From Pseudomonas sp. PDM18 (lineage in GTDB: Bacteria > Pseudomonadota > Gammaproteobacteria > Pseudomonadales > Pseudomonadaceae): a stretch of 64,000 nt of DNA. The stretch covers positions 1 to 64,000 of the forward strand of contig NZ_JACVBX010000014.1 of NCBI RefSeq assembly GCF_014852585.1, read 5' to 3'. How positions within the stretch are numbered: position 1 is the first letter of the stretch; each line of letters starts with the position of its first letter. Shown here piece after piece: positions 60,167 through 64,000 of the stretch. Made by a program: the position numbers and the translations under genes. The notes under the pieces are model-generated. The model had not been told where the DNA came from and made no database searches. It saw nothing but the letters and a program-made list of their open reading frames with translations.

Positions 60167-62215
60167 TCAGTCTTCTTCCGGGACCGCCTTGTAGCCACTC
60201 GACAGGCGTTGCTGCACGTCTTGTGGGACGGCGCTGTAATGGCTGGAGGAAAGGCTGTAGAGGCCCTGGCCGGCGGTGATGGATTTCAGCCGGTTGGCGT
60301 AGCCATCCAGCTCCGCCAGCGGCACCTGCCCGCGCACCAGTGCGACGCTGGCCGAGAGGGATTCGGTGCCCAGCACCTGGCCACGCCGGCCGGTGAGGTC
60401 GGCGGTGATATCGCCCAGATGGGAATCCGGCGTCGTCACCTCGATCTGCATCACCGGCTCCAGCACGATGCCGCCGGCATTGCGCAGCGCATCGAGCATA
60501 GCCTTGCGCCCGGCGGCCTGGAAGGCGATGTCCTTGGAGTCCACCGAGTGGCTCTTGCCGTCGAAGACCGTGACCTTCACGTCCTCCACCGGGAAGCCAG
60601 CCAGCGGCCCGGCCGCCAGCGCCGAGCGCACGCCTTTCTCCACCGAGGGGATGAAGTTGCCGGGAATCACCCCGCCCTTGATCGCGTCGACGAAGGCGAA
60701 GCCCTCGCCGCGCGGCAGCGGCTCGATGCGCAGGAATACCTCGCCGAACTGCCCCGCGCCGCCAGTCTGCTTCTTATGCCGGCTGTGACCTTCGGCGCTG
60801 CGGGTCGCCGTTTCGCGGTAAGGCACGCTGGGCGCGCGGGTCTGCACTTCCAGCTTGTACTGCCCGGCCATGCGTTCGAGCAGATAACGCAAGTGCATCT
60901 CGCCCATACCGCGCAGCACGGTTTCCTGGGTGGAGGCGTTGTAGTCCAGGCGCACGCAGGGGTCTTCGGCCTGCAGGCGCTGGAGGATTTCCGCCAGGCG
61001 CTGCTCATCGCCGCGCCGGCTCGCCTCGATGGCCAGGCCCTGCATGGGCGTGGGGAAATCCAGCGGCTTGAGGTGGATGTGGTCTTCGTCGTGGGAGTCG
61101 TGCAGCACCACGCCGTACTCCAGTTCATCGACCTTGCTCAGCGCCCCGAAGTCACCGGGGATCAGCCATGGCGCCTCCTCGTGCTTCTTTCCCTGCAGGC
61201 GCAACAGATGGCCGACCTTGAACGGCTTGCGCCCGTCGCCGGCGAACAGCTGCATCTCCCGGCGAATCGTGCCCTGGTGCACGCGGAACACTGCGAGGCG
61301 GCCGACAAAGGGGTCGATCACCACCTTGAACACGTGGGCCAGCACATGGGCGGCCGGGTCGGGGCTGGATTTCACCGGGTGCTCGGCGCCCTTGTCGTCG
61401 GTGCGCAGGAACAGCGGCGGGTTGCCCTCGGTGGGGTTCGGCGCGAGGCGCGCGAGGATGTTCGCCAGCTCCGGCACGCCGGCGCCGGTACGTGCGGAAA
61501 CGAAACACAGCGGAATCAGGTGGCCTTCGCGCAGGGCACGCTCGAAGGGTTCGTGCAGCGCCTCGGGCGCCACCTCGCCTTCCTCCAGGTAATGCGCCAT
61601 CAACGCCTCGTCCACTTCCACCACCTGGTCCACCAGCGCCTGGTGCGCCTCGGCCACCGAGGAGAAGTCCGCCTCGCCGTCGGGATTGAAGAAACAATCC
61701 ACAACGCGGGCGCCGCCCTCGGCAGGCAAGTTGATGGGCAGTACCTCCTTGCCGAACGACTCGCGCAAACCCGCCAGCAGGCCCGGCAGGTCGATGCGCT
61801 CGGCATCGATCTTGTTTACCACCAGCATCCGGCACAACCCGCGCTCGCCGGCCCAGTCCATCATGTGGCGGGTGCTCAGCTCGATGCCGCTTTGCGCATT
61901 GACCACCACCAGCGCGGTTTCCACCGCCGCCAGTGCCGGCAGTGCGTGGCCGATGAAATCGGGATAGCCGGGGGTGTCGATCAGCCGGACCTGCGCGCCC
62001 TCATGCTCGAAGTGCGCCAGGGCGGCGGCGAGGGAGTGATGGTATTCGCGCTCCAGCGGATCGGAGTCGCACAGGGTGTCGCCGCGCTCCAGCGAGCCCA
62101 TGCTGGGAATGGCGCCGCTGTGCTGCAGCAACGCTTCGGCAAGCAGGGTCTTGCCGCTGTCGCCATGGCCGACCAGGGCCACGGTGCGGATCTGTTCCAC
62201 CGAGTAACTGGACAT
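60167..62215 (-). CDS. EF-G-like translational GTPase (EF-G2 type)
   Basis: The 682-residue protein has the GTPase motifs VALVGHGDSGKT (G1, 13-24), DTPGYPD (G3) and NKID (G4), followed by EF-G-like domains II to V. The G1 motif GHGDSGKT differs from AHVDAGKT of canonical EF-G, which marks the EF-G2-like branch whose function is not settled. It keeps the domain IV/V region (SHRHKKQTGGAGQFGEVFLRIEPL and KGGVIPGNFIPSVEKGV). GGAG lies eight bases before the ATG. It stands alone, next to a 911-base noncoding region. Confidence 0.92.
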   Translation of the reverse strand: MSSYSVEQIRTVALVGHGDSGKTLLAEALLQHSGAIPSMGSLERGDTLCDSDPLEREYHHSLAAALAHFEHEGAQVRLIDTPGYPDFIGHALPALAAVETALVVVNAQSGIELSTRHMMDWAGERGLCRMLVVNKIDAERIDLPGLLAGLRESFGKEVLPINLPAEGGARVVDCFFNPDGEADFSSVAEAHQALVDQVVEVDEALMAHYLEEGEVAPEALHEPFERALREGHLIPLCFVSARTGAGVPELANILARLAPNPTEGNPPLFLRTDDKGAEHPVKSSPDPAAHVLAHVFKVVIDPFVGRLAVFRVHQGTIRREMQLFAGDGRKPFKVGHLLRLQGKKHEEAPWLIPGDFGALSKVDELEYGVVLHDSHDEDHIHLKPLDFPTPMQGLAIEASRRGDEQRLAEILQRLQAEDPCVRLDYNASTQETVLRGMGEMHLRYLLERMAGQYKLEVQTRAPSVPYRETATRSAEGHSRHKKQTGGAGQFGEVFLRIEPLPRGEGFAFVDAIKGGVIPGNFIPSVEKGVRSALAAGPLAGFPVEDVKVTVFDGKSHSVDSKDIAFQAAGRKAMLDALRNAGGIVLEPVMQIEVTTPDSHLGDITADLTGRRGQVLGTESLSASVALVRGQVPLAELDGYANRLKSITAGQGLYSLSSSHYSAVPQDVQQRLSSGYKAVPEED

Positions 62216-62271
62216 GCTGAATCTCCCGCCCCCAGGGTGAGTGAAGTATAGGCAGCAGGCCCTGCGCCCCT

Positions 62272-62334
62272 GGACAAATATTGAGCAGCCCGACGCGAGC
62301 CAGCCACGGCGGGGCTCGCAGCGATTCATCCACA
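62272..62334 (+). repeat. 63-nt hairpin element, copy A
   Basis: GGACAAATATTGAGCAG (62272-62288), a 6-base spacer, stem GCGAGCC (62295-62301), an 11-base loop, stem GGCTCGC (62313-62319), four bases, and ATTCATCCACA (62324-62334). The internal distances are identical in copy B. Confidence 0.75.
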
Positions 62335-62605
62335 ACCCGCCCACAAGTTCCTGGCAGAACGCTGCACAGCCAATGTGGAAAACCCAGCGGAAAATATGCT
62401 GTAAGCCAGTAACGGCGGGACTTTCGTCGATTGATCAAAAAACGTACCAAGCCAACGAAGGCGCGCCCCGCGTGGCCTGCAGCGATCTGGGTACAGGTTG
62501 TCAACACCTTCTGCGAGGTTCGCCCCACAGGCATTGTGGAAAGTTTCGCGCAGCCTGCGCCACTGGGGAAAAGTCGCTCTGGATCAGTCTCTTACATCCT
62601 TCGCT

Positions 62606-62668
62606 GGTCAATCTTTGAGCAACATTCCGGAAGCCGCGCAGGGCATGGCGCCGGCGAAGTTTTCCACA
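62606..62668 (+). repeat. 63-nt hairpin element, copy C (diverged)
   Basis: GGTCAATCTTTGAGCAA (62606-62622) is followed, at exactly the same 52-base offset as in copies A and B, by AGTTTTCCACA (62658-62668). Its central part pairs less well, with CCGG (62627-62630) and CCGG (62651-62654) as the best stem. After the box, this copy and copy A both read on to CACAAG at the same distance. Confidence 0.6.
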
Positions 62669-63126
62669 GGCGGCGCACAAGTGGGTCAACACAAACCGGG
62701 GATAGCGGTGGAAGGATCGTGCACAGGAAACTCGCTGCAATCGATACACAGGCTCGCAAGTGATTGAAAAAGCGCGACTGATCAGAAAACAGCCAGCTTC
62801 AGGGAAGCCCCGCCCCATCGGTTCCGCAGCCACCTCCAAACAGTTTTTCCACAGGTTGGACAAGCATGCCTCCACAGCGGCTGTGGAGATCTCCACATCT
62901 CCCTCATCCACCTCTGAAAGCCAGGAATGACGGGGCTTATTTGAAATCCTGAGGCGATTTTCGGCTGTTCATGAAAGTGCCACGCCGCCGTCATCTTCCA
63001 CCCCTTTATCCACAGCTTTATCACAAGGTTGCCCCCGGATTCTCGGCAAATGCTGAAACACAGCCGACGCGGCGTTCAGAGGGGGGCGGAGCTATGCTGG
63101 ATTTCCCCCAGCAGAGGAGCCAACCC

Positions 63127-63444
63127 ATGATCCTGACCACCACGCCCACCATCGAGGGCAAGACCATCCAGGAATACCGCGGCATCGTGGTTGGCGAGGC
63201 GATCCTCGGCGCCAACGTGTTCCGCGACCTGTTCGCCGGCCTGCGCGACATCATCGGCGGCCGCTCCGGGGCATACGAGAAGGAACTGGGCAGGGCGCGG
63301 GAGATCGCCTTCGAGGAGCTGCAGGAGCGCGCGCAGGAGCTGGGCGCCAATGCCGTAGTCGGCATCGACCTGGATTACGAGGTCGTGGGGCAGAACGGCA
63401 GCATGCTGATGGTCAGCGTGAGCGGGACGGCAGTGCGTATCTGA
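63127..63444 (+). CDS. YbjQ/UPF0145-family protein
   Basis: The 105-residue protein is a full YbjQ (DUF74) domain: [59 protein letters not shown] with the conserved GGRS motif, then [15 protein letters not shown] and a C-terminal strand. Relatives form pentamers and are sometimes called heavy-metal binding, but function is unknown. GAGGAG lies seven bases before the ATG; the longer frame upstream runs through the DnaA-box region and is rejected. Confidence 0.92.
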
Positions 63445-63458
63445 CGTCGGGGGTAGCT

Positions 63459-63505
63459 GTAGGAGCGCACCATGCGCGCGATCGCGGGCATGGCGCGCTC
63501 CTACA
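63459..63505. repeat. REP-like hairpin after the YbjQ gene
   Basis: TGTAGGAGCGC and GCGCTCCTACA flank CCATGC / GCATGG arms, making a long near-perfect palindrome of 47 bases. It may terminate the YbjQ transcript. Confidence 0.8.
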
Positions 63506-63511
63506 GGCATT

Positions 63512-63574
63512 GGTCAAATCTTGAGCAGGATAATGCAGGCCATGCCAACAGTGGCCTGCAGGCATTCATCCACA
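63512..63574 (+). repeat. 63-nt hairpin element, copy B
   Basis: GGTCAAATCTTGAGCAG (63512-63528), a 6-base spacer, stem GCAGGCC (63535-63541), an 11-base loop, stem GGCCTGC (63553-63559), four bases, and ATTCATCCACA (63564-63574). Compared with copy A, two stem positions differ and both partners change to keep the pairs. Confidence 0.75.
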
Positions 63575-63629
63575 GGTTGGCGACAGCTTGCGCGAGCAAC
63601 CGTCCCCAGCGCCTGGGGACAACTCAGGC

Positions 63630-64000
63630 TCAGGCGCCCATGACTTTGCGGATGTCCGCCGCCAGTTCCTCGACGCGGGCGGTCTCGGTATCCCACGAGC
63701 ACATGAAGCGGGCGCCGCCGGCGCCGATGAAGGTATAGAAGCGCCAGCCCAGCTGACGCAGGGCTTCCAGAGCGGGTTCGGACATCTGCAGGAATACGCC
63801 GTTGGCTTCCACCGGGAACATCAGCTGCACGCCCGGTACATCGGCGACGCGCTCGGCCAGCAGTTGTGCACAGCGGTTGGCGTGGCTGGCGTAATGCATC
63901 CAGGCGTCGTCCTGCAGCACCCCGACCCAAGGCGCGGCGAGGAAGCGCATCTTCGAGGCCAGTTGGCCGGCCTGCTTGCAGCGGTAGTCGAAGCCTTCGG
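63630..64000 (-). CDS. ltaE: Low-specificity L-threonine aldolase, 3' part
   Basis: The frame is open to the right edge, so only the last 123 codons are present. The residues YRCKQAGQLASKMRFLAAPWVGVLQDDAWMHYASHAN and VQLMFPVEANGVFLQMSEPALEALRQLGWRFYTFIG match the C-terminal domain of the PLP-dependent threonine aldolase. The enzyme splits threonine into glycine and acetaldehyde or runs in reverse. In P. aeruginosa it lies close to gbcAB, fitting a role with glycine made from choline. Confidence 0.9.
   Translation of the reverse strand, partial: EGFDYRCKQAGQLASKMRFLAAPWVGVLQDDAWMHYASHANRCAQLLAERVADVPGVQLMFPVEANGVFLQMSEPALEALRQLGWRFYTFIGAGGARFMCSWDTETARVEELAADIRKVMGA

Follow-up and report, generated by a model that had tools for sequence, protein, structure and literature searches.

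What is known of the control of the initiator protein DnaA comes largely from E. coli, where DnaA is recharged at DnaA-reactivating sequences (DARS). We take DARS1 to lie at bioD-uvrB and DARS2 in the rppH-mutH stretch; pseudomonads, to our knowledge, possess neither SeqA nor Dam. Boxes II and I of DARS are arranged head to head and are functionally essential (PMC10380432; similarly PMC8682772; excerpts of both). DARS2 is further described as needing Fis and as conserved in seven E. coli-like species (PMC8682772, excerpt), and datA as needing an IHF site (PMC10380432, excerpt). Excerpts of PMC10380432 and PMC6090056 report DARS-like sequences in many proteobacteria, V. cholerae being named, so that elements of this kind are already known. 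Within the open-licence literature we found no description of DARS in Pseudomonas, of DARS in tandem arrays, of at least 12 copies, or of a fixed Fis spacing, and these features of the locus described here appear to be new.

The DNA analyzed (the window) is a stretch of 64,000 nucleotides from a Pseudomonas genome of 6.4 Mb. Non-coding DNA within it, including a stretch of approximately 0.9 kb, carries repeats which probably represent a DnaA-control region composed of five Fis-linked modules of the DARS type, one of several such loci in the vicinity of the origin. The original prediction, made from the letters of the window, had recognized three copies of a 63-nt element (A, C and B). The coordinates of these copies and their 17-nt openings were confirmed, as were the 7-bp stems, 11-nt loops and two compensated differences in A and B; two further copies, D (62433) and E (62780), had been missed, giving a total of five. 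The unit itself is longer than proposed: it continues to +110 (+99 in C), the 63 nt being the front half of a module. An 11-mer thought to be common to the three copies is identical in A and B (ATTCATCCACA), whereas C has AGTTTTCCACA, and TCCACA alone is therefore shared by all three. The features are listed below; bit scores are those of model R2 (114 nt, 51 rows), which was constructed from Pseudomonadaceae modules alone.

60167..62215 (-): gene bordering the array, start taken at ATG 62215; presumably elongation-factor-G-like, so called by eye without a family search
62272..62382 (+): module A, long type; Fis-type dyad 62272-62286; palindrome 62293-62321; R2 70.7 bits; DnaA boxes forward at 62326, 62337, 62348 and 62360, reverse at 62374
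62433..62543 (+): module D, long type; Fis-type dyad 62433-62447; R2 72.3 bits; DnaA boxes forward at 62487, 62498, 62509 and 62521, reverse at 62535
62606..62705 (+): module C, short type; Fis-type dyad 62606-62620; R2 55.0 bits; DnaA boxes forward at 62660, 62671 and 62683, reverse at 62697
62780..62890 (+): module E, long type; Fis-type dyad 62780-62794; R2 67.6 bits; DnaA boxes forward at 62834, 62845, 62856 and 62868, reverse at 62882
63006..63025 (+): DnaA boxes TTATCCACA (consensus) and, 11 bp on, TTTATCACA; CCACAGCTTTATCACAAG over 63006-63028; kept in 16 orthologs
63127..63444 (+): small gene between modules E and B, which we take to be ybjQ-like (DUF74-like)
63512..63622 (+): module B, long type; Fis-type dyad 63512-63526; palindrome 63533-63561; R2 80.6 bits; DnaA boxes forward at 63566, 63577, 63588 and 63600, reverse at 63614
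63630..64000 (-): 3′ part of a gene continuing past the window end, presumably the threonine-aldolase-like ltaE

Modules A and C thus lie in the 0.9-kb stretch between the elongation-factor-G-like and ybjQ-like genes, and module B between ybjQ and ltaE. The box pair at 63006-63028 belongs to no R2 match and is perhaps a decayed sixth module. Module B is adjoined by a 25+25 inverted repeat (63457-63506; 92% complementary), which resembles many places in this genome and its relatives and which we assume to be of the Pseudomonas REP type.

The modules, 100-111 bases in length, are built to a common plan. The 15-bp Fis-type dyad at +0 is followed by a palindrome from +21 to +49, centered 35 bp on, and by DnaA boxes, forward at +54, +65, +76 and +88 and reverse at +102. 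A, D, E and B are in register over 111 nt without an indel, and C lacks exactly one 11-nt unit; the register alignment of the five modules was viewed in six of 16 genomes. In all five window modules a gap of 5 bp separates the reverse box from the last forward box, to which it is oriented head to head, an arrangement like that of boxes II and I in E. coli DARS. Copies of box II in the window match 5-6 of 9 letters and those of box I 6-8 of 9. The register of box III in A, D, E and B matches 3-4 of the 9 letters of TTATCCACA; in these four of the five window modules the better box is located 11 bp further out and is separated from box II by 11 additional bases. The spacing of 3 bp between box III and box II, which was read from E. 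coli sequences, is present in C (where box III itself is weak, at 4 of 9 letters), at a second locus discussed below, and at most of the loci from other families.

The array is exceptionally dense in boxes. Positions 62233-63118 contain 12 DnaA-box-like 9-mers (TTWTNCACA with at most two mismatches, CACA being kept), as against a mean of 2.07 and a maximum of 8 in 500 dinucleotide shuffles. Expressed per 900 bp, the array has 12 boxes and the second locus 13, compared with no more than 8 in any of 14 further 20-kb stretches from this genome, one of which includes oriC and which were partly picked for TTATCCACA sites. In 18 cluster regions chosen for their box density, some of them orthologous, the distances between convergent boxes peak at 26 (35 cases, 0.4 expected), 37 (24 cases), 14 (14 cases) and 48 (seven cases), and those between tandem boxes at 12 and 11 (15 and 13 cases, 0.8 expected); the peak at 14 is the distance of the head-to-head pair. 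Both A and B are kept in 16 loci (that of the window and 15 in relatives), the alignment of which reveals long conserved blocks around the boxes; a plain BLAST search with this locus also aligned copy A with the position of B in a different genome (G004:6079195-6079260; E 1.7e-5).

Among the described systems closest to the module is E. coli DARS1, which has three boxes at spacings of 3 and 5, boxes II and I facing, together with a 7-11-7 palindrome at the same upstream distance. Model R2, although it holds no enterobacterial sequence, recognizes DARS1 with a score of 16.8 bits (E 4.7e-5 in a search of 12.5 kb). Across 262,503 bases of E. coli DNA (the DARS1, DARS2 and datA stretches plus five 50-kb stretches, one with oriC), nothing else reaches E≤10. 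The match to DARS1 covers the palindrome GCAAGCC-N11-CGCTTGC (6 of 7 pairs) and the boxes TAATACACA-3-TTATCCACA-5-AGTGGATAA. Palindrome arm and box III of the module are 42 nt apart, which may be coincidence. DARS1 differs from the array in having one core and another chromosomal place. DARS2 resembles the module in its 3/5 triplet spacing and needs Fis (PMC8682772, excerpt), for which the module has a predicted site, but it is not detected by R2, with scores of 5.0 and 3.6 bits. When a triplet of boxes at the 3/5 spacing was scored, DARS1 matched 24 of 27 letters and the DARS2 stretch 22, while datA and the 50-kb oriC stretch both matched 19. A further difference is that neither DARS1 nor either of the DARS2 core candidates has a Fis-type dyad 65-66 bp before box III.

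The openings of A, B and C fit the Fis consensus GnnYAnnnnnTRnnC (PMC4585315, PMC10380432; excerpts), and those of D and E do so with one mismatch; by this comparison the module opening is a predicted Fis-type site at +0 in all five. Assignment of the openings as IHF sites was ruled out, since the TTR part does not fit. A tighter form of the Fis consensus is GNTYAAWWWTTRANC. Among 57 module matches (58 picked from 108 by leaving out antisense and weak ones, minus one with an indel), G1 and C15 are invariant. G1 is also present in all 23 matches that were aligned solely from model position 8 or later; as it was unscored in these, its invariance was not forced by the search, though several of the 57 and of the 23 are orthologous to one another. 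Outside the family, the best Fis-like 15-mer, scored with a pattern of 13 specified positions, was located in 20 loci; in 12 of them (17 with ties; three do not conform) it precedes box III by 65-66 bp, compared with 32 of 2000 random anchors. These 20 loci come from 28 partial matches whose alignment began at model position 14 or later, and were thus found without the Fis part. An earlier version gave 20/20 at 65-66 bp; its loci had been chosen by a search that included the Fis part, which makes that figure biased and 12/20 the fairer one.

The expectation that further copies would be found in related genomes was borne out. Model R1 (63 nt) matched all 24 genomes of the same genus that were searched (E≤0.1), after which a reading confined to the window locus was dropped. 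R2 matched 294 of 298 Pseudomonadaceae genomes, representing 18 of 19 genera, at E≤0.01; copy counts from this search are lower bounds, because 12 candidates per genome were scored. The four non-matching genomes are all four of genus g33 (G056, G072, G083 and G094), with sizes of 1.9-3.3 Mb. Eleven genomes searched more deeply contain 12-21 modules each at E≤0.001. In a class-level sample R2 matched 55 of 229 genomes at E≤0.001, 53 of the 55 lying outside the family; under strict filters the remaining 174 gave no R2 match at this threshold. The usual layout of 20 loci from other families is a Fis dyad, approximately 50 bp, and a core like TTTTCCACA-AAG-TTATCCACA-GCTTT-TGTGGATAA.

The copies were also mapped against oriC, as had been suggested, in ten complete genomes in which its position was taken from rpmH. 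The best 136 of 187 matches are all on the origin side, within 0.41 of the half-chromosome (about 1.3 Mb) from oriC, and none of these 136 is in the terminus half. The array is found 166-224 kb from oriC in 10/10 of these genomes, with 3-5 modules, although on the other arm in G008. The second locus (493-608 kb from oriC; 2-4 modules) is likewise present in 10/10; in the genome of the window it presumably lies between rarD and gcvR, and in the others it was assigned by position alone. A third locus occurs 443-559 kb from oriC in 7/10, and in G001 adjoins what we take to be secB and gpmI. Some genomes carry additional loci, at about 70-200, 690-1010 and 1120-1300 kb. As judged from the aligned sequences, the order and spacing of the module parts and the distance of the array from oriC are conserved. 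The array does not adjoin ltaE in every genome: among 20 ltaE-side loci, a density of 9-15 boxes per 900 bp is seen in 14, two others show 6 and 8, and the remaining four no more than 4. Genome G006 has four modules approximately 8.5 kb from ltaE (C171:57.4-58.0 kb; L107) and none was seen beside ltaE, from which we surmise a possible displacement of the array with respect to the neighboring genes.

Position and density also bear on an alternative, namely that the array serves chiefly as a sink for DnaA or in the manner of datA, acting by titration or by ATP-DnaA hydrolysis after passage of the fork and without nucleotide exchange. Like the array, datA is an origin-proximal cluster of DnaA boxes, and the crowding of boxes at both loci, the constant closeness of the array to oriC and the many copies, which suit titration, would all be accommodated. 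Against it, facing boxes with a 5-bp gap are a trait of DARS, and the R2 score of datA is 2.6 bits, as opposed to 16.8 bits for DARS1. Moreover, a complete facing core is absent from datA (19 of 27 letters), which possesses a perfect IHF consensus; the array offers two single-mismatch IHF sites and no perfect one. IHF sites are a trait of the DARS2 subtype as well, and for these too the array has single-mismatch candidates. We consider a sink or datA-like function unlikely. Homology to datA was ruled out on the missing IHF consensus and the poor R2 score.

The hairpin, which the original prediction had regarded as selected on the strength of its paired changes, presents a mixed picture. The claim holds in part: in 16 orthologs of A the stem covaries (0.458 versus a shuffle mean of 0.237), a value reached in 0/500 shuffles and exceeding all slides, with a shuffle control that ignores the relatedness of the copies. 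No covariation is seen in the 16 orthologs of B (0.031 versus 0.036 shuffled) or over 150 modules (0.161 versus 0.161 shuffled). A pool of 33 A, B and C copies, which mixes sets, gave 0.278 versus 0.151, and RNAalifold predicted no pair for these 33 copies. Module C lacks such a stem: of the 15 orthologs found, none has the complete set of 7 pairs. A covarying hairpin is not a property of the modules in general. A structured RNA with a selected hairpin, one of the three options originally offered, would account for the covariation in the A orthologs and in the pool. The lack of covariation in B orthologs and in the 150 modules, the absence of a consensus structure and of an Rfam family (a search of 61500-64000 returned two matches, both far below threshold) nevertheless render it highly improbable. 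Quasi-palindromes undergo mirror-image mutation, and such correction is a possible source of the pattern in A.

Dyad symmetry is a different matter: over the 150 modules 56.4% of cells are paired, compared with at most 43.5% when slid. Since this symmetry is real without general covariation, the arms are better read as a palindromic DNA site, most simply one with a symmetric consensus of about TGCARGCCACG-N5-CGTGGCYTGCA, drawn by eye. In 20 full-length loci of other families, 71 candidate dyad centers were compared, and the one 30 bp ahead of box III scored highest (3.05 of 7 pairs; mean 1.84). It is only tied for second place (2.37; mean 1.79, best 2.53) among 19 loci recovered without the 5′ part, one of 20 having been dropped because its core score was under 20.

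A second replication origin is a similarly improbable explanation, although the array, like oriC, has many DnaA boxes between genes. Jiang et al., in Plasmid 55:194 of 2006, reportedly described two putative origins in P. aeruginosa. An excerpt of PMC4403523 also mentions two autonomously replicating elements, the second being a fragment from P. aeruginosa, the place of which we did not find in the open-licence literature. The array has no AT-rich unwinding stretch, its richest 40-mer being 62.5% AT versus 77.5% at oriC; the oriC of this genome differs also in having five consensus boxes, and the module recurs at several loci, sometimes singly. Least probable of all is that the element is a mobile palindrome ending in a DnaA box, another of the original options, since, even though dispersed copies exist and a REP-type repeat adjoins module B, the copies keep similar distances from oriC across the ten complete genomes, with none of the best 136 of 187 matches in the terminus half.

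A DnaA-linked protein site is the one option of the three that the sequence supports, and we return to the probable reading of the locus as a DnaA-control region of DARS-type modules. DnaA bound to the facing boxes II and I would be held head to head, Fis at its fixed upstream site would control the complex according to growth phase, and the modules would raise or set the pool of ATP-DnaA before initiation, as the DARS of E. coli do. We infer the step from box geometry to ADP release, and the biochemical activity of the modules, be it ADP release, ATP hydrolysis or titration, is to be read with the same qualification.

More tentatively, and leaning slightly against it ourselves, we raise a twofold proposal: that the DnaA cycle of the Pseudomonadaceae may run through 12-21 origin-centered, Fis-linked DARS modules (five of them approximately 190 kb from oriC) instead of two sites, and that a Fis dyad placed six turns of the helix ahead of the core may be an older gammaproteobacterial design which E. 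coli DARS1 and DARS2 have left. If so, DnaA recharging would scale with gene dosage in the origin region and with Fis. A conserved DARS-like module in many copies provides exact targets (the facing boxes, the Fis dyad and the palindrome) for the study of replication timing, and the fixed spacing from Fis dyad to core, found also outside the family, amounts to a testable statement on how DARS are constructed.

Two further observations concern DNA near oriC and near ltaE. On contig C7 of genome G000 (73.4-133.2 kb), 34 of that genome's 140 TTATNCACA boxes are concentrated in 60 kb by oriC; R1 revealed no clear module in this cloud of boxes. Beside ltaE, the DNA at 63577-63627, which overlaps the boxes of module B, is of the form GGTTGGGGACAGGTTGCGCGAGCAACCGTCCCCAGCGCCTGGGGACAAC; it is nearly unchanged in 16 genomes and, as judged by eye, could fold into two alternative hairpins.
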